Of a DNA stretch of 44,166 nucleotides, positions 20,743 to 41,397 are shown piece after piece (position 1 is the first letter of the stretch; every line of letters starts with the position of its first letter). Origin of the DNA: Candidatus Poribacteria bacterium (lineage in GTDB: Bacteria; Poribacteria; WGA-4E; UBA9662); NCBI GenBank assembly GCA_002709695.1, contig PAQF01000062.1:1-44166 (forward strand). The letters run 5' to 3'. The translations under genes were made by a program, and so were the position numbers. The notes beneath the pieces were generated by a model. The model saw nothing but the letters and a program-made list of their open reading frames with translations. It made no database searches and was not told the DNA's origin.

Positions 20743-23019
20743 ATGAAAATCAGTCTCGTTTTAAAATTAATCTTGATCTTCACTCTCTTAGTATTCGGTT
20801 TTGTTTATTTCCCGGTTTCTAGTTTAGAAATTGATAAATTAGAGCCTTTTGAGCTAACAGGATCCCACTTTAGCCTGATCGAGGCCAGCCATAATTTATA
20901 CCGGCCTTTCCCAAAGATGATCACAAGAAGTAGTAACCCCATGACCCCTGAAAAAACCGAATTGGGACGACTTCTTTATTTTGATCCGGTTTTATCTGGT
21001 GACAATGACATTTCCTGTGCTCACTGTCACCATCCGGATCTCGGATTTTCCGATAATCGAGATATATCTATGGGAAAAGGGGGAAAAGGACTTGGCAAAG
21101 CTCGAAGTGGTGGGACTATCATCCGGCGAGGTTCGCCTACTATTTGGAATGTAGCTTATAACCACCGACAATTCTGGGATGGGCGGGCTCTTGATTTGGA
21201 AGACCAAGCTCAGAGCCCAATTCAACACAAAGATGAAATGGCTCAAAATTCAGAAGAGTTGATAGAAGAACTTCGCGCTCTCCCAGAATATGTCCAAAGT
21301 TTCGATCAGAGTTTCGGAGGAGAAGGGGGATCTGGTCTTACTTTCCAAAACCTAACTTATGCCATTGCTGCTTTCGAACGGACTATTACTTCCCAAAATT
21401 CGAGATTTGACCAATATGCTCGTGGTAATCAAGCTGCTCTCAATTCATCGGAACAACGAGGGTTAAACGTTTTTCGGTCACTGAAAACGCGTTGTTTTGA
21501 ATGCCATAATTTCCCTACCTTTGCCAACCCTGACTTTAAAATCATTGGGGTGCCCGATATTTCTAACACAGATCCCGATTTGGGACGAGGAGAAATTGAT
21601 GGAAAAGCGTACAATCGCGCTTTTAAAGTGCCTACTTTAAGAAACATTGCTCTAACTGCACCATATATGCATAATGGTGTCTTCCAAACTTTAGAGGAGG
21701 TTATTGACTTTTATGCTCAAGGGGGAGGTCGAGGTCAAGGGCTTGATATACCAAACATAGACGACAAGATTCGTAAATTCAAGTTAAGTCCCAATGAAAG
21801 ATCTGATTTAGTTGCCTTTCTTCACTCGCTTACGGATGAGTCGGCAAAACCGAAGTTCCCTGATACTGTTCCATCTGGGTTGCCCGTTGTTCCTAGGTTG
21901 ACGAATCAATCGTCAGAGCTGGTCGCTTTCCACCAATATGCTAAACCGTATCCCAGATCAAGAGTAAAAAAAGTGGGACGAACCATTACTGTGTCTGATG
22001 GACAATCGATTCAAGATGGTATTAACCTTGCTGTTTCAGGCGACTTGGTGAAAGTCATGCCAGGTCGTTACCATGAAACACTTTCGGTCGATATCTCTGG
22101 GATCACTATTCAGGGTATAGAAATTGCAGGTAAAAAACCTGTTTTAGATGGCAAGAAGATTCTATCTGATGGATTAGTTGGGTCTGGTAGCAATTTGGAG
22201 ATTCGCAACTTTAATGTAGTTAACTATACTGCCAATGGTCTGATGATTAATGGTGCTTTAAACGTTAAGTTCATTGATATTTATTGTGAAAATACAGGCT
22301 TATATGGAGTTTATCCAGTGGAGTGTGTTGGTGTTACGGTGGAGAGGTGTACAGTAACAGGCGTCAGAGATGCGGGAATCTACGTTGGGCAATCAAAAGA
22401 TATTGTAGTGAGAGACTGCATTGTTTATGGCAATGTAACTGGTATCGAAATCGAAAATTCGGTAGGGGCAATTGTTGAAAACAATGATGCGTATAACAAT
22501 GCGGGAGGTATCTTGGTGTTTTTGCTACCCAATAATCCTTCCAAAATTTCTAGAGACTGTAAAGTTATTGGTAACCGAGTACACAATAATAATCATGAGA
22601 ATTTCGCTGATCCAAATTCAGCTGTTAGTGGAGTACCTTCAGGAACAGGTATTTTGATCATGGGTGCAGACGAAGTAGAAGTTGCACAAAATGAAATTCA
22701 AGGCAACAATTCTTATGGAATTGCAATTGTTAGCCTAGATGTTGACAATCAAGAACCAACTTCCTATGACGTTGATCCTGTTCCTCAAAGTTGTTGGGTG
22801 CATGAAAACACAATGAAAAATAACGGTTTGGATCCTGACCCGTCCGTTTTAAAACTGGGACTTCCAGGCGCAGATTTACTCTGGGATTTAAGTGGATACG
22901 ACAACAGTTGGGATCAGCCTAATGTTCGTTCTATGCCTCCTATCTTACCTAACAAATCATGGCCGGATATTTTACGCCGAGCGAATTGGCGGTTGTGGAA
23001 AGTCCTAAGTAGCGTTTAG
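20743..23019 (+). CDS. di-haem cytochrome c peroxidase/MauG-like domain fused to parallel beta-helix domain
   Basis: A 758-residue exported protein. Residues 1-27 form a signal peptide or anchor. The N-terminal half (about 55-365) is a di-haem peroxidase of the CcpA/MauG superfamily: haem motifs CAHCH (92-96) and CFECH (251-255), WDGRA at 145-149, and the TAPYMHNGVF block at 306-315. After a proline-rich linker, residues about 412-715 form a right-handed parallel beta-helix of the NosD/PbH1 kind (repeated strands such as GVTVERCTVTGVRDAGIYV and GIEIENSVGAIVENN). Peroxidases reduce H2O2, and MauG oxidises protein side chains; the beta-helix may bind a glycan or a partner. It has its own promoter and is monocistronic. 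The domains are clear; the joint role is unknown. Confidence 0.82.
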   Translation: MKISLVLKLILIFTLLVFGFVYFPVSSLEIDKLEPFELTGSHFSLIEASHNLYRPFPKMITRSSNPMTPEKTELGRLLYFDPVLSGDNDISCAHCHHPDLGFSDNRDISMGKGGKGLGKARSGGTIIRRGSPTIWNVAYNHRQFWDGRALDLEDQAQSPIQHKDEMAQNSEELIEELRALPEYVQSFDQSFGGEGGSGLTFQNLTYAIAAFERTITSQNSRFDQYARGNQAALNSSEQRGLNVFRSLKTRCFECHNFPTFANPDFKIIGVPDISNTDPDLGRGEIDGKAYNRAFKVPTLRNIALTAPYMHNGVFQTLEEVIDFYAQGGGRGQGLDIPNIDDKIRKFKLSPNERSDLVAFLHSLTDESAKPKFPDTVPSGLPVVPRLTNQSSELVAFHQYAKPYPRSRVKKVGRTITVSDGQSIQDGINLAVSGDLVKVMPGRYHETLSVDISGITIQGIEIAGKKPVLDGKKILSDGLVGSGSNLEIRNFNVVNYTANGLMINGALNVKFIDIYCENTGLYGVYPVECVGVTVERCTVTGVRDAGIYVGQSKDIVVRDCIVYGNVTGIEIENSVGAIVENNDAYNNAGGILVFLLPNNPSKISRDCKVIGNRVHNNNHENFADPNSAVSGVPSGTGILIMGADEVEVAQNEIQGNNSYGIAIVSLDVDNQEPTSYDVDPVPQSCWVHENTMKNNGLDPDPSVLKLGLPGADLLWDLSGYDNSWDQPNVRSMPPILPNKSWPDILRRANWRLWKVLSSV

Positions 23020-29464: not shown

Positions 29465-30064
29465 TTATCTGAGCAGAAATGATAGGTCTTTTGATAGTTG
29501 ACTCATCTTTTCTTGTTCAATGCCATCATAATAACCGCGGATTTGTAGGTTCTCATCAACAAGAACAAAGTAGGTACTGTGGGTGATAGAATCCTCAACA
29601 GAACCTACTTTAAATCCTTTAAAGGCGAGTTTATGTATAGTTTCTGATGGACCGGTTAAGAAATGCCACGTGTTGGTATTAGCACCATAACGTGCGGCGT
29701 ATACATCCAGAACTTTTGGTGAATCCCGACTAGGGTCAACAGAAATCGAAATCATTCTTACCCTATCATCCGTTTGGAAGTTCTTGTGAAGTTCTGCCAT
29801 CTTTTGGCTCATGATCAAACATGGGCCAGCACATCTGGTAAATATAAAGTCAACGACCCAAATTTTTCCTTTCAGTTGATTAGAGGAGAACTCATTAGCA
29901 TTTGAATCAATCAGGGAAAAGTCGGGAACTGGGCCGTAAACAGCAAGTTCTGAAGATTCAGTGGGAGAATCTCGGAAAAGAACTAGGCTGGCTATGAACA
30001 ATCCAAATATTATAAGTAAAAAAACAGCAACTAGCGAGGATTTTGACATAGGTGTCAAGCACAC
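29465..30064 (-). CDS. SCO1/SenC copper chaperone for CuA assembly
   Basis: A thioredoxin-fold copper-delivery protein, 199 residues from a GTG (an ATG at 30049 is an equally good start). One N-terminal membrane anchor spans about 11-30. Copper ligands are the CAGPC motif (Cys78, Cys82) in FTRCAGPCL and His162 (ITHSTYFVLVD). ISISVDPSRDSP is the family's strand-loop. SCO proteins load or reduce the CuA centre of COX2, whose gene lies two positions upstream in the same unit. It is the last gene of the respiratory directon. Confidence 0.93.
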   Translation of the reverse strand: MCLTPMSKSSLVAVFLLIIFGLFIASLVLFRDSPTESSELAVYGPVPDFSLIDSNANEFSSNQLKGKIWVVDFIFTRCAGPCLIMSQKMAELHKNFQTDDRVRMISISVDPSRDSPKVLDVYAARYGANTNTWHFLTGPSETIHKLAFKGFKVGSVEDSITHSTYFVLVDENLQIRGYYDGIEQEKMSQLSKDLSFLLR

Positions 30065-30579: not shown

Positions 30580-31761
30580 TTACTCGTCTTCTATAGATTC
30601 AGCAACTTTCTTGGCCATCCATTTTCCAAATTCTTCCTTGGGGTGAACCACCATATCAGCACGCATACGATAATGACCGATACCACATAGTTGAGCACAG
30701 GCAACTTCCCATGGGCGAACGATTTTAACGATTTTTGATCCATTTAGATCTTTTGGAGAAGATACTTCAAATGTGCCATTCTCCAAATTAATATTTCTAA
30801 CAACTAATTCCTGTCCACGTGAACCGAGTTTACCACCAGTAAACAGTACTTTAGAAGCCCGTCCTAATATACCATAGAAGGATTGCTCTTCTCTACCATA
30901 GAAATCCTTAATATGTTCAGGTCCCACTGCAATCGTAAAATCCTGATTTCCATTAGAAGTGATTGTAAAGTTAGTTATGTCTACTAAATCGTAACTAGCT
31001 TTGCTTGGCTCGAAATACACGGGAACTTGTATGCCTGGGATTGTATCTTGTTTTACACGCATTACAGGCAAAGAAAACGCGTGAATAACATCTTTGCTCA
31101 TTAGTTGAGCAATTACGGGTTTGTTAACTGGTAAATGCAATTGATTAACAGTTGTAACGTCATCTTTCGCGTTTGGATCGCTTAGGTCTAAACCAACAGG
31201 ATTATCTCGATAGAAACTTTTGTTTTCTTTAACCATTTCAGGGTTAATTACACGACCGAATTTTCCGTCTGGTCCCGGATAGTGAAAATTCCAAGCAAAT
31301 TGTTCTGCCAGAACACGAACTACAATAGGAGATTTTCCAGACTTAACATTAGCATCTGCCAGTTGTTCTGACCAGAACGGCAATGAAATACCAATCAGTA
31401 AAATTCCCTCAATGACTGCGACTCCAATCTCCAAGTAGCTTGACAGGTGACTCTTTGCTCCGTCATAGCTTGCGGTTGGATTCTTAGATTGTCTAAAACG
31501 CAGTAGCGTATAGATCAAAAAAACGCCCCAACCAGTTCCGAGAACAAACATCAGGACGTGAATCAAATAAATTAGGTTATCAGTTTCGTGAATACCGCTT
31601 TGTAACACGCCATGGGCTGTTGCATTCATTGGCATCCCTGGCATTTTTTTGCCGAGGTCTAAAAGCTGTCTCATATCCAAAACAATACTGGCTATAACCA
31701 CGATGGCCGTGAGCCCAAAGATTACTAAAAGAAGCGATCGCTTTGAGGTGGATTTCCCCAT
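30580..31761 (-). CDS. ctaC: cytochrome c oxidase subunit II with enlarged CuA domain
   Basis: 393 residues: two or three hydrophobic segments (about 10-28, 62-86, 112-130) and a periplasmic CuA cupredoxin. FAWNFHYPGPDGKFG (155-169) is the conserved aromatic block. CuA ligands are His227 (DVIHAF), Cys355, Gln357 (backbone), Cys359, His363 and Met366 (CAQLCGIGHYRM). His227 and Cys355 are 128 residues apart; about 35 is usual, so the domain carries an insertion of roughly 90 residues (about 255-345). No C-terminal haem c domain. A strong GGAGG lies 9 bases before the ATG, which immediately follows the stop of the upstream small gene. Confidence 0.92.
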   Translation of the reverse strand: MGKSTSKRSLLLVIFGLTAIVVIASIVLDMRQLLDLGKKMPGMPMNATAHGVLQSGIHETDNLIYLIHVLMFVLGTGWGVFLIYTLLRFRQSKNPTASYDGAKSHLSSYLEIGVAVIEGILLIGISLPFWSEQLADANVKSGKSPIVVRVLAEQFAWNFHYPGPDGKFGRVINPEMVKENKSFYRDNPVGLDLSDPNAKDDVTTVNQLHLPVNKPVIAQLMSKDVIHAFSLPVMRVKQDTIPGIQVPVYFEPSKASYDLVDITNFTITSNGNQDFTIAVGPEHIKDFYGREEQSFYGILGRASKVLFTGGKLGSRGQELVVRNINLENGTFEVSSPKDLNGSKIVKIVRPWEVACAQLCGIGHYRMRADMVVHPKEEFGKWMAKKVAESIEDE

Positions 31762-32245: not shown

Positions 32246-33451
32246 TTAGAGTTTGGAGAAGGAGAAGTTAGATTCTGAAATTTCTCCCTCTCTTACCTCA
32301 ACCGTTGAGGTGAGAGAGCCCAACTTTTCGTGCCAAGCTTCCAATAGATAAGTACCCGCTGGTAGATTCTTAATTTCGAATTTTCCGTTCAGTGCAGTTA
32401 GGCTGAAGAAGGGATGGGGAAGAACACTAACGTATCCACCCATCCAAGGATGGACATCACATTTAATTGGAAAAGGATCCTGTTCTTCTTCTTGGAAAGT
32501 ATAATCGATTTTCTTGGTCATTTTCGGCATGGCTTTATTGAATTCTGAGTTGATAGTTGGTATGGCATGAACATTGTGCATTATACCATCAGAGTTTTTG
32601 ATGGTGATTTCTTGGCCAGCCATTACTGCTAGGATATGTGGTTTATACATACATCCATATTGATCTAAAATTGCAACTTGAATACGCCCTGCCGATATCT
32701 CATCAGTTGCTTTGTATGCCCGACCTATAGGTGGCCCCTCTGTAATACGAACTAACACATTTGCTAATGTATTGCTTGGCCCAACAACTACGGTATCGGA
32801 TATTGGGTCAGTTGTTGTGTATTTTCCGTAACAACCAATGTCAGCCGACATTTCTTCCATCAGCGATTTCATTCTGGGGATTTTTCCTTCAAAAGTGACC
32901 AAACCAGAGATGACAGAAGTTCCGTATATAGCATCACCAGATGAAGTATCTGACGTGCCATCGCCATCTTGCTGGGGATTAAACACTTTATTGCGCCAAT
33001 AGGCACCAATTGGACTACCTACTGGAGCTGTAAAATCACTACTATGCGCATTATCCTGCTCATGAACTTCTTCATGTTGTTCGTGTTCATGCAGGTGTGT
33101 TAGAGATTCATTATATTCTTTTTGGAACCGATGTTCGTCCTCGTTATCATGATAAGGATGTTTGTTGCTTGTTGCACCTAGCGCAATAAAAACTAGGATT
33201 AGAAAGCAGACAGCCGTTAGTCCTAGAAGCTGATAAATCGACTTTTTTTCATGGTTCAAGTGCATGAAATAAAATGCTACTAACGACCCCTTAACTGTAG
33301 CAACGATCAAAGCAACCACAATACTACCAGATAGACCGAAGTCGATATAGCTGATCCCAACGGTGACTACTGTCAGTACGGCTAAAGCCAAGAAAACATA
33401 TAAGTACTTCTTAACGTCTTGGCTGACATCATGTATATGACCTTCCGACAT
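32246..33451 (-). CDS. COX4-type oxidase subunit fused to a cupredoxin-like domain
   Basis: 401 residues. Residues 1-95 are a bacterial caa3-type subunit IV with three helices (about 16-36, 43-63, 73-92), including TVKGSLVAFYFMHLNHE. A His/Glu-rich linker (about 97-137) leads to a carboxypeptidase-regulatory/plastocyanin-like domain (about 175-401) with a type 1 copper-like ligand set: His292 or His295 (GIMHNVHA), Cys331, His334 and Met337 (KCDVHPWMGG). The domain is about 55% similar by eye to the lipoprotein at 36195-37007. GGAAGG lies 9 bases before the ATG. The membrane portion places the copper domain next to the oxidase. Confidence 0.87.
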   Translation of the reverse strand: MSEGHIHDVSQDVKKYLYVFLALAVLTVVTVGISYIDFGLSGSIVVALIVATVKGSLVAFYFMHLNHEKKSIYQLLGLTAVCFLILVFIALGATSNKHPYHDNEDEHRFQKEYNESLTHLHEHEQHEEVHEQDNAHSSDFTAPVGSPIGAYWRNKVFNPQQDGDGTSDTSSGDAIYGTSVISGLVTFEGKIPRMKSLMEEMSADIGCYGKYTTTDPISDTVVVGPSNTLANVLVRITEGPPIGRAYKATDEISAGRIQVAILDQYGCMYKPHILAVMAGQEITIKNSDGIMHNVHAIPTINSEFNKAMPKMTKKIDYTFQEEEQDPFPIKCDVHPWMGGYVSVLPHPFFSLTALNGKFEIKNLPAGTYLLEAWHEKLGSLTSTVEVREGEISESNFSFSKL

Positions 33452-33465
33452 TATTCAATCCCTTC

Positions 33466-34377
33466 CTAACTTCCAGGTAACAAATAGAGAACAGGAAACA
33501 AAAAAATCCAGACGAGATCGACAAAGTGCCAGTATAATCCGGCACACTCAATTCGATTTATGAATCTGTCCGGCTCAGTTTCCCACATTTGACAACCTGG
33601 GATTGCCGACACAAATGTTTTTACCAATCCAGATACCAAAAGAAAAATGTACAAAATAATGGGGCTAATAGCAAAGATGACCCCAGATCCGCTATATATT
33701 AAGAAAGCACATAATGCTATTAATACAACAGGTATGATTAAATAATATATGATTACCCAAAAACGTGTTAACAAGGTTTTCCAAGGTAACAGAAAGTATC
33801 CATTGACTAAGACACCACCGATAATATGTAGTCCATGTAATCCTGTCAGGGTGAAATATATAGCATAGAAATTATGAGTTTTGGGATATATGCCATGGGA
33901 AAATTTGTAGTTATATTCGTAAGCTTTTGCGACTAAAAAAAGCAGCGAAAATAAAATAGTGAGACCCATATAAAATTGGAACTTTTTCAAGCTTTCAGCT
34001 CGGATCTTTTGAGGGTTAGATAGAGCTGATACCGTGATCCTTTCCTGGATGTCCTTCGGTTCCAATTCCAAATGGGCTATTTCTTTTTCCCTAGCCCGAC
34101 CAATGGCCAAAGATGCCCAAGCCATAACAATAGTAACACTAGAGGCAATTAAAATGAAAGTGTTGAAGGTCGCTAGCGGAACATTAAGCCCCGCCCCACC
34201 TTGTTCAACAGGTACGCTGCCTTCAAGCCAACTAACTGCTCCTGTACGTAGCAGAATATAAGTAGAGAAAAGGCCTCCAAACAGCATCACTTCAGATGCT
34301 AAGAAAAGCCATATCCCCATTTTGCCATTGTAGACGCCCGTATCTGGCCGACTTTCTACTGTATAAGGAATTTGCAA
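33466..34377 (-). CDS. ctaE: cytochrome c oxidase subunit III
   Basis: 303 residues with seven membrane helices. [22 protein letters not shown] (24-45 region), [12 protein letters not shown] and [17 protein letters not shown] are the family blocks, and the glutamate in ASEV is conserved. A hydrophilic loop (about 90-125) is longer than in most COX3. It starts 2 bases after the COX1 stop. Confidence 0.93.
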
Positions 34378-36194: not shown

Positions 36195-37007
36195 TTAAGA
36201 TCTACTCAAGGTAAAGTTTAATGTATGGGGTTTACCATCCACAACAGTAACAGTTTGCTTCTGTGTTCCCAGTTTTTCGTGCCAAGCTTCAACATCGTAA
36301 GTACCAGCTGGTAAATCCCTGATTTCAAATTTTCCATCTATGTCAGTTACATTAAAAAATGGGTGATTTAAAATTCCAATGTAACCTCCCATCCAAGGGT
36401 GTACATCGCACTTAATAGGAAAAATTGGTTCGGCTTCTTCGAATATGTGTGAAAATGTTTTCTTAGTTTTTGGCATAGCTTTATTAAACTCAGCATTTTT
36501 TGATGGTAACGCGTGAACATTGTGCATAATTCCATCTGAGTTTAAAATTTTGATTTCTTGTCCTGCCATAGCTCCTACCACATGAGGTCTATACATACAA
36601 CCCTTTTGGTCTATTACTACGGGGGCAGATGGGATAGCGTACTTGGCATTATTTGGGATACCTTTTGTAATATGAACAAATACATTCGCTAATTGTTTGT
36701 CGTTACCTAAAACGATTGAATCTGATACCGGATCATCGGAGTGCCCAGCAATACAAGCTGACTCTACAGCCATCTCTTCAGCCAAAGACTTTGTCCATTT
36801 TTTTGGGGCTTTGCCTTCAAAGGTAATTTTTCCAATGATGGATGCGGTTCCTGTTGAAGCGGTAGCGGTTCTTATGGTACTAGCAGAGGTAGATGGCCGT
36901 TTAGGAATAGGCTTTCGTCTTTCTGTTGGTTTATCACTTCCTCCACAACCAATTAAAATTGAAATTGCTGTAACCACAAATACAATAGCGACAAAACGTG
37001 TTTTCAT
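36195..37007 (-). CDS. cupredoxin-like lipoprotein
   Basis: 270 residues. Signal peptide with lipobox LIGC (Cys21), a Thr/Ser/Pro-rich linker, then the same carboxypeptidase-regulatory/plastocyanin-like domain as the COX4 fusion. Putative type 1 copper ligands are His162 (GIMHNVH), Cys200, His203 and Met206 (KCDVHPWMGG). Shared ligand spacing and near-identical motifs with the COX4 domain (292/331/334/337) imply duplication. Probably a membrane-tethered electron carrier or oxidase subunit; annotated relatives are sometimes called methylamine utilisation-like. It lies between the zinc-ribbon gene and COX1. Confidence 0.8.
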   Translation of the reverse strand: MKTRFVAIVFVVTAISILIGCGGSDKPTERRKPIPKRPSTSASTIRTATASTGTASIIGKITFEGKAPKKWTKSLAEEMAVESACIAGHSDDPVSDSIVLGNDKQLANVFVHITKGIPNNAKYAIPSAPVVIDQKGCMYRPHVVGAMAGQEIKILNSDGIMHNVHALPSKNAEFNKAMPKTKKTFSHIFEEAEPIFPIKCDVHPWMGGYIGILNHPFFNVTDIDGKFEIRDLPAGTYDVEAWHEKLGTQKQTVTVVDGKPHTLNFTLSRS

Positions 37008-37013
37008 TATTAT

Positions 37014-37427
37014 TTATTTGTTTTCCTTCTCAAATTTTTCAGCCAGAAAATGTTTAAACCCTTCCATGTCTGCTGGCACATCAAAGCCACGGAACTCACT
37101 ACGGCAATCATAGCAAACAACCATATTTGGCACACGCTGATATAATAGCCAATCAAAAAACGACAAAACTGGCAAGCTAAGACAATAGGTGAAGGGGGCC
37201 AAGCAGATACCAATGAGCATGATGGCTAGCCCTAAGACCTTATTGAAATCCTTTTGGCCATAAAAATATGGACAACCACATATAGGACATTTCTTAAAGA
37301 TCCTATCTCGATTAATCTGCCATGTTGCCTTGCAACTAGAACACTGAATACTTTTAATTTCTTTGTCAACTTCAAGTTGAGATTCATGAGAACAATGTTG
37401 GCATTCAACACCGATCGACGGCTTCAT
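37014..37427 (-). CDS. zinc-ribbon membrane protein
   Basis: 137 residues. Two zinc-ribbon-like pairs (CQHCSH 9-14 with CSSCKA 29-34, and CPICGCP 47-53), two membrane helices (about 64-85 and 88-100), then CYDC near the C-terminus. Function unknown; it may assist assembly of the complex, since it overlaps the upstream membrane gene by four bases and sits mid-operon. Confidence 0.65.
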   Translation of the reverse strand: MKPSIGVECQHCSHESQLEVDKEIKSIQCSSCKATWQINRDRIFKKCPICGCPYFYGQKDFNKVLGLAIMLIGICLAPFTYCLSLPVLSFFDWLLYQRVPNMVVCYDCRSEFRGFDVPADMEGFKHFLAEKFEKENK

Positions 37428-38200
37428 AAGGCAAGGCCATATTGAATCGAGTAATACCTATATGCGAAATCCCCCATCAGGACTGAAATAGAGACTACAT
37501 ACAAAATCCCTGTTGCAGATTGAGTTGATTTTAACTTCACCGTTTCATGCACAAAATACAGGAGGATGAATGGAAAAATTGTTCCAAAAAACAACCCTAC
37601 CGATAGAAGAAGGCCATCGATCATACTAATGAAGCGAAACAGCGATATTTCAACGTCCAAATACGTCACCGTCCCAATCATAATCGATGAAAGATTCCAA
37701 GCTAATCGAAGAGTTACTAACCCCCAAAAGATCCTCGTAGTTTTTATTAACAAATTTATCGGCAAATTTTCGACATTCAAGTACCAATGACCAAGTACAC
37801 CCGAAAATATTGAAGCGCATAATACCAAGCCACTAAGAATACTGATAATCTGCAACATCCAGTTATACGAAGTCAACTGGTTTTGTACTTTTAAAAGAGC
37901 GATTATTCCTATAATTGATGTCAAAGCTACTGAGACCCATTTTATCCGGTCTCGATTCCAAAAGTAAGCTGAAACGGCAAGCAATGCTATAAACCAGACA
38001 GTTACTAGCCCTTTTGTCGCAAATGTGACAACATCTATACGCCAAAGACTAACCACTCCAAGCCCACCAATTACACCACAAAAGCCCAGATTGAAACGAT
38101 AGAATCCGGTTTTCACAACCTCTTTATTATTGACCCAAAAAAAAAGGGGATATAAACAGCCAAAACCCAGTGAGGTTGTCACAAGCGTGTTAGTTAGCAT
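37424..38200 (-). CDS. polytopic membrane protein of the bc-oxidase cluster
   Basis: 258 residues and about seven or eight membrane helices. No family is recognised. SGVLGHWYLN near 133-142 has a membrane His that could bind haem or a quinone, but no second ligand is obvious. It starts 2 bases after the octahaem cytochrome stop and overlaps the zinc-ribbon gene. A dedicated subunit or assembly factor of the bc complex is inferred from position only. Confidence 0.6.
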   Translation of the reverse strand: MLTNTLVTTSLGFGCLYPLFFWVNNKEVVKTGFYRFNLGFCGVIGGLGVVSLWRIDVVTFATKGLVTVWFIALLAVSAYFWNRDRIKWVSVALTSIIGIIALLKVQNQLTSYNWMLQIISILSGLVLCASIFSGVLGHWYLNVENLPINLLIKTTRIFWGLVTLRLAWNLSSIMIGTVTYLDVEISLFRFISMIDGLLLSVGLFFGTIFPFILLYFVHETVKLKSTQSATGILYVVSISVLMGDFAYRYYSIQYGLAL

Positions 38201-38202
38201 TG

Positions 38203-41200
38203 CTATTCTATAGCGAGAATATAATCTCGCAAAGCATGAATCTGGTCTTGTTCTTCTGTTGTTAGATTTTCCGGATCAAAGTAGGATGGCATCTTAGTTC
38301 CCGGAAGCAACTTTTGCGGATCGAGTAACCACTGGACAATCCATTCTGGTTTTAACCGTTCTTTCGCCATAGCTAAGTTAGGAGCCCAATTAGCGGGAGA
38401 GCCTCCGGGCATCTGGTTCCCTTTGATGTGACACTTAAGGCATTGAAACTCTTGTTCTAGTAGGTTTTTGGCGTTGGTATATTCTTCTTTAGTGAATGTT
38501 GGTTTTACGTCATCAACAAATGGAAAGTCCTGTTGGTCAAGATAACTAAAATATCTAACTAAGGCATTAACTTGCTCTTCGGTAAAATTGAAGGTCGGCA
38601 TTCGGATCTCAAGCCATGGGCGGATGGGCATAGGTTCACGGAAGAAACTATATAACCAATCCGTCTGTACTTTTTGGCCTTCGCCTATCAGGTTTGGCGG
38701 ACTATAACTGTTAGTGACAGCTTGTGCTTCATTCTGATCTCTTCCTTCAAAGTGTACAAGCCAGTTTGTTATGCTGGGTTTAATTGATCCTCCTTTATCT
38801 TCAAGAAGATGACAACCAGTGCAGTTGTATTCACGGGCTAAACTCTGTCCTCGTTCAACATAAACATTCTCTGGCGTCCGAGGTATAACCTTGGATGATA
38901 GAGCTTCTTCGTTGACAAAACCTAACAAGGCAGTAACAATCGCTTCAGTTTCTAAATCACTGAAACCGAAGTTAGGCATTCGGGTCTTTTCAGTAAATTT
39001 CTTGAGTTTAACTACCTTCGCATCATCTAGATTGGCAATCCTCTCTGTATTACTATCAACAATCGCGTTCGTATCCCAAATTCGTGGATTTAATAGCTTT
39101 TGGCGAAACCAACTGTAATTCGTATGATTCAGGTGTTTCAAGCTTTTAGGTTTGATGTGTCCATTTTGGTCATATACGGCTTCTTGAACTGAACCAAAGT
39201 CGAGTTTCTTAGTCATTTTACTGCCGTGATATGTTAAATCAACCCCAACAGGTTTCTGGCTTTCAAATCCAGGAATATTATGACAACCATAACAACCATA
39301 ATGGGAAATGAGTTTCTGACCAGTAAATGCCAGCATCTGATCCGAACTCATTTCTTTAATTTCTGATTTTACTGCAGCTTCAGATTTGGAACCTTCCAAA
39401 AACTCCTCTGTAATAGTAGACAGTATTTCTTTATTAAGTGATTTGACATTCGTTTTCTTGAAAGTTTGACGTAGTGTAACGAGATAGGCTGTGAGATCGG
39501 CTGCTTCCTTGTCTGTCAGTCGCAAATCCGGCATTCGTGTATCTGGATTGTATTGGGTGGGATCTTTTAACCAGTTGTATACCCACCTTGGAGAAGTCTT
39601 GACTCCTGTGCCGATTAAGTTTGGTCCTTGTTCAATGCGCATCGTATTCCGATGAGCTTCGATTTTAGCTCTTTTCTGTGCATCTGTATCGTTCGATGTA
39701 AAATCGGTTGATTCAATTGATGACTCGGGTGAAATTTGGTGGCATCCCATACAACCAAGCGCATTGAAAAGTGTTTCCCCCGTTTCAGCATCACCTTTAA
39801 TTGGAATCTCGGCCATCTCGAATTCTGAACTGTTTTGGTAGAGATAGTGGGTAATGGCATGGACTTCTTGGTCGTTCCGCTCATCGGTATTTCTATTGTT
39901 AAGAAGGTCATAAAATTTTGGCATCCAAGTATTATGGCGAAAATCTGCTGGATTTTTAATCCAGTTACGAGTCCAATTTTCATCTTTAATCTTTGAAGCC
40001 ACTTTGGTTAAACTCGGCCCAACGGGTTTTCTTTCCTCATATTTCTTTATATTATGACAGCCGTAGCAACCAGATCTTTCGATCAATGCAAGGCCAAGAG
40101 TGAGCTTCTCCCCACCGTCGATCTCTGATTCGCCAGAATGACATTTGAAACAACCTGCTTCCGCATACTTGGTTGGAAACATTGGTCTCTGCCAATGGTG
40201 GAGAGTAAACCAATCTGGATGGGTGTTTTTTGTTGGATAGTTATGATTTTCTCCCCATTCTTGCTTTTGTTGGTGAGATGAAGGTTTATGCACAACCGAC
40301 GAGAAACTTGTTCCTCGACCTCGGCCTGCATGACAGCTAGAACAACCAAACTGATCGATTGGATGTGGTGAATCACTGCTGAGGAATAGATCCAGTCTTG
40401 GGTGTGCTCTAAATGGTTTTTTCATTGTTTGTAGCAGATCATCTTGGTTACGGTCTTCCTCGGGGTCAAGCAAACCATTTCCGTTATCATCCTCATGTAT
40501 ATAATCTTTACGTTGGATCCCTAGATGGCAGGTAGTGCATCTGTCAACTTTTGGAACTCTAGAAAAATTTAAGTCTTCGATCACATCAGGAACAACAATT
40601 TGGTCAATTTTATAGTAGGGGCTAGAAAGATCAAGAACAGGGAGATCTCGAATCTGATTACCCACAGTATTTATTGCTCGGGCTATAGTTGCCCCAAACT
40701 CTCCTCGTTTATCAACTTCGTATATATCGTTTTGGAGATCAGCATTATCTCCTATACTAGTAAGTTGGGGATCCACTTTTCTCAATTTACTTTTTAGGAC
40801 ATTTACATCTGACATCAGAGCCCTAGCTTCTTTTTCCAAACGCTTCTTCTCTGCTTCGTATGGCTTTAACTCGTCACGAAGATCCTTAAGATTTTGGTTG
40901 GTACTTTGCATCTTTGGTACCAGCTCATTCATCTTTTTCTCTTTATCCTGCATTTCAGCCTTTAGTTGTTTGGTATTGTGATGTTCTCCATGGTGAGCAA
41001 TGGCCTCTTCATAAAGGTATTTAATCTCGTCATACAGAGATTTCCTTCGTTGGTATTCACTAGTATATCTAAAATTATCTGCTTCTTTTTCAGCAATCTG
41101 TGCTTTAAGTTCTTCCACCTTTTTGTATTTATCATCTAGGGTATGCTCAGCTTCATCAAGTGCATACATTGTTTCTGCATATTCTGCTTGGCTTAGCAGT

Positions 41201-41397
41201 TTTGCCTCCGCATCCAAGTATGCATCCTTAGTTTTGTCAACTTCCAACTGGCGAAATTCCCGTTGGTATTCCTTCCATTTTCGAGCATAATCATCTTGAA
41301 ACATCCAAAGAAGGGTTAAAACAAATATGATGCTGGAAATAGCAAACCATTTGTTGAGAAGAGAAATTTTGTAGTATCGTTCTTCTTGTTCTGCCAT
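38203..41397 (-). CDS. octahaem c-type cytochrome with membrane anchor and coiled coil
   Basis: 1064 residues. One N-terminal membrane helix (about 17-33), a long charged coiled coil (about 36-205), then eight CXXCH motifs at Cys287, 352, 416, 444, 549, 702, 859 and 986. Candidate distal Met ligands occur in WMP, RMP and KMP blocks (Met492, 622, 807, 933, 1036), so several haems are cytochrome c class I modules in tandem. An EF-hand-like loop (residues 303-314, DDNGNGLLDPEE) lies between haems 1 and 2. It replaces cytochrome c1 in a bc-type operon and should carry electrons from the Rieske protein to the oxidase. Confidence 0.92.
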   Translation of the reverse strand: MAEQEERYYKISLLNKWFAISSIIFVLTLLWMFQDDYARKWKEYQREFRQLEVDKTKDAYLDAEAKLLSQAEYAETMYALDEAEHTLDDKYKKVEELKAQIAEKEADNFRYTSEYQRRKSLYDEIKYLYEEAIAHHGEHHNTKQLKAEMQDKEKKMNELVPKMQSTNQNLKDLRDELKPYEAEKKRLEKEARALMSDVNVLKSKLRKVDPQLTSIGDNADLQNDIYEVDKRGEFGATIARAINTVGNQIRDLPVLDLSSPYYKIDQIVVPDVIEDLNFSRVPKVDRCTTCHLGIQRKDYIHEDDNGNGLLDPEEDRNQDDLLQTMKKPFRAHPRLDLFLSSDSPHPIDQFGCSSCHAGRGRGTSFSSVVHKPSSHQQKQEWGENHNYPTKNTHPDWFTLHHWQRPMFPTKYAEAGCFKCHSGESEIDGGEKLTLGLALIERSGCYGCHNIKKYEERKPVGPSLTKVASKIKDENWTRNWIKNPADFRHNTWMPKFYDLLNNRNTDERNDQEVHAITHYLYQNSSEFEMAEIPIKGDAETGETLFNALGCMGCHQISPESSIESTDFTSNDTDAQKRAKIEAHRNTMRIEQGPNLIGTGVKTSPRWVYNWLKDPTQYNPDTRMPDLRLTDKEAADLTAYLVTLRQTFKKTNVKSLNKEILSTITEEFLEGSKSEAAVKSEIKEMSSDQMLAFTGQKLISHYGCYGCHNIPGFESQKPVGVDLTYHGSKMTKKLDFGSVQEAVYDQNGHIKPKSLKHLNHTNYSWFRQKLLNPRIWDTNAIVDSNTERIANLDDAKVVKLKKFTEKTRMPNFGFSDLETEAIVTALLGFVNEEALSSKVIPRTPENVYVERGQSLAREYNCTGCHLLEDKGGSIKPSITNWLVHFEGRDQNEAQAVTNSYSPPNLIGEGQKVQTDWLYSFFREPMPIRPWLEIRMPTFNFTEEQVNALVRYFSYLDQQDFPFVDDVKPTFTKEEYTNAKNLLEQEFQCLKCHIKGNQMPGGSPANWAPNLAMAKERLKPEWIVQWLLDPQKLLPGTKMPSYFDPENLTTEEQDQIHALRDYILAIE

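Follow-up and report, generated by a model that had tools for sequence, protein, structure and literature searches.

An octahaem cytochrome c that probably takes the place of cytochrome c1 or f in a b6f-like complex of Candidatus Poribacteria and other phyla

The window analysed here, a whole contig of 44,166 nucleotides from a Candidatus Poribacteria bacterium (PAQF01000062.1), encodes an octahaem cytochrome c subunit in an operon with Rieske and cytochrome b genes. Judging from the encoded proteins and their order, this subunit is probably the equivalent of cytochrome c1 or f in a b6f-like, menaquinol-oxidizing complex, and would pass electrons through tethered cupredoxins to the CuA site of an oxidase and on to O2. 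Of its family, one complex has been described so far, Kustd1480-1485 of Kuenenia stuttgartiensis; the breadth of the family, the invariance of its proposed haem ligands and its coupling to an oxidase are what we add.

The octahaem gene (38203..41397, minus strand) was read as an open reading frame running from an ATG start at 41397 to 38203 and encoding 1064 amino acids. The protein has exactly eight CXXCH motifs (C287, C352, C416, C444, C549, C702, C859 and C986), and all 16 of its cysteines lie inside these motifs. In 20,000 residue shuffles of the same protein, the mean number of CXXCH motifs was 0.006 and the maximum was one, and the open reading frame is kept, at 85% identity, in another genome of the same genus. 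The nearest named relative is a Candidatus Poribacteria MAG (L046, 85% identity). Chance motifs were rejected on the shuffles, and an assembly artefact is ruled out because the frame is kept in the second genome. One transmembrane helix was predicted. From the N-terminus, the protein consists of the membrane anchor (about residues 15-36), a stalk (42-134 and 142-208), a tri-haem module and five class-I cytochrome domains. The first-pass annotation had described eight CXXCH motifs, a membrane anchor and a coiled-coil stretch of about 170 residues, and these features are real, with the stalk helices spanning about 167 residues.

Searches of Pfam and NCBIfam gave no match to the cytochrome c1 family, and the eight-haem protein is the only c-type cytochrome of the operon. 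In textbook Rieske/b complexes, cytochrome c1 carries one haem. The annotation had placed the octahaem protein "in place of cytochrome c1", and this placement is supported by its being the sole c-type gene of the operon, by its position after the Rieske, cytochrome b and subunit IV genes in most relatives, by its co-inheritance with cytochrome b, and by a homologue that has been modelled as an f/c1-equivalent (PMC12954380). Membership in the octahaem reductase/HAO family was rejected, as such a match was absent from the Pfam and NCBIfam results. A score against TIGR04485 was taken as similarity to class-I domains, and identity as SoxX was rejected.

Directly upstream of the octahaem gene, on the same strand, are genes for a Rieske iron-sulfur protein (PF00355; 43448..44161, minus strand, its 5' end reaching the contig edge), a b6-like N-terminal half of cytochrome b (PF00033; 42625..43455, minus strand), and a C-terminal half similar to subunit IV (PF00032; 41474..42592, minus strand; 372 aa, about 8 predicted transmembrane helices). 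By sequence, these proteins have the features of a b6f-like complex: four histidine ligands for haems b (H126, H140, H247 and H262), the Qo motif KAPWY, the Rieske cluster motifs CTHLGC and CPCHGSGF, and a cysteine for haem ci. This cysteine, present in 84 of 85 sequences, is C76 of cytochrome b and falls in the alignment at Cys35 of b6, the ligand of haem ci/cN. The KAPWY motif was found in 82 of 85 sequences, and the subunit IV-like protein has an invariant E137 near the position of Phe40 in b6f subunit IV. In the cluster motif of the window Rieske protein the Ser is kept and the Tyr is replaced by Phe. CPCHGSGF, with the Ser and without the Tyr as in Kustd1480, was present in 68 of 76 Rieske sequences; despite such a motif, the isolated Kustd1480 protein has a potential of +335 mV (PMC12954380). 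The substrate of the complex would be menaquinol. The window genome, which is 96% complete, has one match to PF00033 and one to PF00115, the latter being the COX1 of the octahaem operon, so the locus apparently encodes the only Rieske/b complex and the only haem-copper oxidase of the genome. In many phyla a HEAT-repeat protein with one transmembrane helix is encoded directly before the Rieske protein (e.g. L053:1504-2346 and L108:4344-5252; HEAT match in 10 of 10 tested); its expected place in the window lies beyond the contig end.

We assigned haem ligands by column invariance in an alignment of 38 octahaem sequences. The Cys and His residues of all eight CXXCH motifs were invariant. Beside the haem sites there were exactly three further invariant histidines (H332, H345 and H370), located among haems 1-3, and five invariant methionines (M492, M622, M807, M933 and M1036), located C-terminal of haems 4-8 and each followed by an invariant Pro. 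A Met-Pro pair after the haem site is arranged comparably in class-I cytochromes c. As the candidate distal ligands equal the haems in number, at eight, we infer three bis-His haems and five His/Met domains. Haems C287, C352 and C416 would form a bis-His tri-haem module close to the stalk, with H332, H345 and H370 as distal ligands, and haems C444, C549, C702, C859 and C986 would form five His/Met class-I domains with the five methionines; the pairing of each ligand with a particular haem is likewise proposed. Pfam scores point independently to class-I domains here, and residues 346-449 scored as cytochrome c7-like. In the AlphaFold2 model the tri-haem module has low confidence, with a pLDDT below 50 at residues 254-332, and the H370 column was not aligned to a His in the sequence checked from the divergent lineage of the window's order.

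The same model (38-sequence alignment; pLDDT 78, pTM 0.74) shows a transmembrane helix and then the stalk as two helices, 42-134 and 142-208, interrupted by short breaks, joined by a short turn and with pLDDT of about 65-91. A second model, of an acidobacterial relative, was made from a 29-row alignment from which the window row was left out, and it has helices at 66-158 and 164-230, mostly with pLDDT 80-95. The stalk is predicted to be a conserved antiparallel helical hairpin inside one chain. The first-pass annotation had suggested that the coiled coil might serve to dimerize the protein; the models give no support to this idea, and a parallel dimeric coiled coil was rejected, as both fold the hairpin within a single chain. 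A Foldseek search against the PDB gave no match at E <= 0.001; weak matches included SMC arms, SH3BP5 and HP0958-type helical hairpins. Calculated from helix rise, the hairpin would run out roughly 140 Å and back about 100 Å, so the haems need not sit far from the membrane.

The octahaem protein has a counterpart in the anammox bacterium Kuenenia. The best PDB match of the window Rieske protein is 9rk3 (158 bits), followed by 9rk4 (73 bits). With the 9rk3 fragment as a probe, a scan of the phylum Planctomycetota found one genome with a 100% identical Rieske protein (locus L153), and we took this locus to be Kustd1480-1485 of K. stuttgartiensis on that identity and the published description. 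Its genes encode a Rieske protein, cytochrome b, a protein of 566 aa where the NAD(P)-oxidoreductase would lie, subunit IV and an octahaem protein of 948 aa. Residues 18-1063 of the window protein align by blastp with residues 24-946 of the latter (26% identity, E 6e-115), and the two proteins agree at the eight haems and at each of the eight proposed distal ligands. As judged from full-length homology, the shared CXXCH motifs and ligands and the Rieske/b/IV context, the window protein is an orthologue of Kustd1485, an octahaem protein that was modelled in 2025 as a cytochrome f/c1-equivalent and was not characterized (PMC12954380).

The two systems have in common a single N-terminal transmembrane helix, long stalk helices, a b6-like split cytochrome b and the Rieske Ser/Phe. 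They differ in three respects: the Kuenenia operon has an NAD(P)-oxidoreductase gene inside it whereas the window operon has none; subunit IV has 277 aa in Kuenenia and 372 aa in the window; and no oxidase adjoins the Kuenenia locus in the stretch read, whereas a cupredoxin and an aa3 oxidase follow in the window. A counterpart of the 566-569-aa protein, which is present in L153-L156, was absent from the window operon and from the inspected non-anammox operons. Without the NAD(P)-oxidoreductase, the window subunit is a member of the family and the complex a variant. A novel haem b has been predicted at the dimer interface of Kuenenia cytochrome b, with His62 as ligand and Arg266 and Lys267 nearby, and has been proposed as the entry to the NAD(P) module (PMC12954380). 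These residues of Kustd1481 correspond to H58, R267 and K268 of the window cytochrome b. The His and the Arg were present in 95 of 95 sequences and the Lys in 92 (Arg in the other three), and nearly all of these operons are without the NAD(P) module. The predicted site may therefore be general, or its conservation may serve another purpose.

Relatives of the octahaem protein are widespread. Within the window's order, 58 of 59 genomes gave a match, and all 21 octahaem proteins first inspected, including that of the window, had exactly eight motifs. A scan of the collection gave at least 547 relatives. The best 80 of these, which were taken for origin, came from Poribacteria, Neomarinimicrobiota, Omnitrophota, Planctomycetota, Hydrogenedentota, Spirochaetia, Kiritimatiellia, Lentisphaerae, Desulfobacterales, Acidobacteria and Lindowbacteria (names as submitted with the records; some bins may be mis-assigned). 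With relatives in at least nine phyla, restriction to one phylum was rejected. The first-pass annotation had called a bc-type complex with an octahaem subunit unusual, which holds against textbook complexes and fails for a family of this spread. Many other Planctomycetota have octahaem versions of 1194-1561 aa adjoining Rieske/b genes.

The gene order is also conserved. Among the matches listed, exactly eight motifs were present at 73 of 76 loci with a readable octahaem gene, cytochrome b was immediately upstream at 61 of 66 loci with enough flank, and a Rieske gene was upstream at 54 of 64 such loci. Downstream of the octahaem gene, again among the matches listed, there was a cupredoxin at 32 and a COX1 at 28 of 42 loci. 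Trees of the octahaem protein and of cytochrome b (N- plus C-terminal halves) agree, with a matrix correlation of r 0.96 (0.84 and 0.81 with outlying groups removed) and no agreement as high in 1000 permutations; the two are co-inherited. In both trees the family of the window groups with other phyla. Members of the same order outside that family have a divergent octahaem relative, about 30-34% identical to the window protein and in a different operon, and the notion that the protein is conserved only in its own order was rejected on these grounds. In the divergent operons (L028-L045), the genes of the octahaem complex are followed by those for a monohaem cytochrome, a cupredoxin, a CydA-like protein (PF01654), multihaem cytochromes and an EB_dh-like protein, and no COX1 was found within the stretches read. 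The oxidase partner is therefore not fixed. Horizontal replacement in the window's family is plausible from these relationships but unproven.

Downstream of the octahaem gene, the window has genes for a conserved integral membrane protein (37424..38200, minus strand; 258 aa, about 5 transmembrane helices), whose gene comes after the octahaem gene in L047, L049, L050, L061 and L066 as well, and, paired with it, a small Cys-rich, zinc-ribbon-like protein (37014..37427, minus strand; 137 aa, one transmembrane helix). This pair (37014-38200) lies 3' of the octahaem gene in several Omnitrophota and at one Planctomycetota locus. The next gene (36195..37007, minus strand) encodes a cupredoxin-like protein with a CarboxypepD_reg-like domain, a lipobox-like N-terminus and the type-1 copper ligands H165, C200, H203 and M206. 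Three of these ligands (C200, H203 and M206) were kept in 71 of 71 sequences and H165 in 68 of 71, and the protein is a candidate electron acceptor of the octahaem subunit. C85, C137 and H142/H162 of the same protein are also kept in 68-71 of 71 sequences, which suggests a disulfide or a second metal site.

An aa3-type oxidase is encoded beyond the cupredoxin, with subunit I (COX1, PF00115; 34380..36146, minus strand), subunit III (COX3; 33466..34377, minus strand), subunit IV with a fused second cupredoxin (CDVHPWM) and a CarboxypepD_reg-like domain (32246..33451, minus strand), and subunit II (COX2; 30580..31761, minus strand). COX2 has the intact CuA motif CAQLCGIGHYRM of aa3-type cytochrome c oxidases and is without a fused cytochrome c domain. 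Compared with the Rhodobacter protein, it has about 100 extra residues between the halves of the CuA domain. Most relatives encode an unfused COX4 of about 100 aa, as against the cupredoxin fusion in the window. A SCO1/SenC-like CuA assembly protein is encoded nearby (29465..30064, minus strand). Elsewhere in the window genome there were few matches to two cytochrome c models; other c-type cytochromes are a two-CXXCH protein at C86 and a match in a 557-aa frame at C53, so CuA may receive its electrons from another carrier. At 20743-23019 the window also encodes a fusion of two domains, one of the di-haem cytochrome c peroxidase/MauG type and one that is right-handed beta-helix/NosD-like.

In the mechanism that we propose, the N-terminal helix would anchor the octahaem subunit and the antiparallel hairpin would run beside the complex, with the bis-His tri-haem module at its base and, after this, a tandem array of five high-potential His/Met class-I domains. 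Menaquinol would be bifurcated at Qo, one electron going to haems b and ci and the other through the Rieske cluster into the octahaem chain. From there the electron would pass, most likely by way of the tethered cupredoxins of the operon, to the CuA of the co-encoded aa3 oxidase and to O2. The order of the haems, the haem that meets the Rieske protein, the cupredoxin step, the type of quinone and the redox potentials are all inferred. The relay from octahaem subunit to cupredoxin to CuA is favoured because the cupredoxin ligands are kept, a second cupredoxin is carried on COX4, and CuA is intact in a COX2 that has no haem c. The main rival to the relay is an obligate III-IV supercomplex in which octahaem subunit and aa3 oxidase dock directly to each other, with the hairpin as a structural clamp and the cupredoxins in another role such as copper delivery. 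An oxidase with CuA and without its own cytochrome c domain, few other c-type cytochromes in the genome, and the SCO-like assembly gene nearby are all consistent with docking, and by analogy with the dihaem QcrC of Actinobacteria, which docks in this way, it is possible, though we lean against it. The cupredoxins retain their type-1 copper ligands and accompany the octahaem gene at more loci than COX1 does (32 against 28 of 42), among them loci without COX1, and therefore look functionally tied to the octahaem side.

We considered two further explanations. By analogy with what has been suggested for Geobacter Cbc-type clusters, the octahaem protein could be a wire to the cell surface for extracellular electron transfer, with Rieske/b as its quinol dehydrogenase. 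A multihaem chain with a long reach and a weak match to cytochromes of the Geobacter Ext operon would fit, but extracellular wires are usually chains of bis-His haems, whereas five domains here are His/Met class I, with high potential expected; moreover, no porin or outer-membrane cytochrome genes were recognized in the operon, and terminal oxidase genes follow. We regard such a wire as very improbable. Slightly less probable still is that the complex works as proposed for Kuenenia, where one bifurcated electron reduces NAD(P) and the downhill reaction lies on the octahaem side. The four orthologous core subunits and the conservation of the predicted interface-haem site speak for this explanation, but a counterpart to the gene for the 566-aa oxidoreductase is missing from the window operon and from the non-anammox operons inspected, and the window operon leads to an O2-reducing oxidase instead.

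Several other known systems resemble the proposed complex in part. The Kuste4569-4574 complex of Kuenenia is likewise a b6f-like Rieske/b complex in which a multihaem c subunit replaces cytochrome f. Its Rieske protein is more distant from that of the window (9rk4, 73 against 158 bits), and unlike the window it has a much smaller, hexahaem c subunit and an extra HAO-like octahaem protein. In actinobacterial QcrABC, c1 also gives way to a protein with more than one class-I haem domain, and the complex is coupled to an aa3 oxidase; QcrC is a dihaem cytochrome cc found in III-IV supercomplexes. Unlike the window protein, it has two haems, no stalk and no tri-haem module, and there was only a weak local match (NF050122). 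Alternative complex III also oxidizes quinol with a multihaem c subunit and often adjoins an oxidase, but it has a pentahaem ActA and a monohaem ActE and no Rieske or cytochrome b, and ActA matches one class-I stretch only of the octahaem protein (6btm_A). The Geobacter Cbc-type clusters (GSU2930-2937) combine a Rieske/b core with several multihaem cytochromes; these are separate proteins with 2, 5, 10 and 12 haems, and no oxidase is described in the cluster (PMC2825233), whereas the window has one octahaem protein.

In the published discussion that we found, octahaem Rieske/b complexes are a peculiarity of anammox bacteria tied to NAD(P)H formation, and a description of the octahaem family at the present breadth was not found in the open-access literature (subscription papers were outside the search). 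Here, Poribacteria, Marinimicrobia, Omnitrophota, Acidobacteriota, Planctomycetota and others are found to encode this subunit with all of its proposed haem ligands, in most cases with a cupredoxin and an aa3 oxidase as neighbours and the NAD(P) module missing. This distribution suggests that complexes of this type generally carry the octahaem arm. Relatives are now at hand for asking why there are so many haems, a question left open in PMC12954380, and the predicted interface haem b is suggested not to be specific to NAD(P). A broader reading, which we consider tentative and rather unlikely in full, is that these genes encode a widespread and largely unrecognized chain: a complex III with a built-in eight-haem arm that would pass electrons to tethered copper proteins and an aa3 oxidase with no diffusible cytochrome c, and that would carry an interface haem b in its cytochrome b dimer, at the site corresponding to His62 of Kustd1481. 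If this is true, electrons could be shared between the two halves of the dimer through the interface haem b, which would then not be a feature tied to NAD(P)H formation in anammox.
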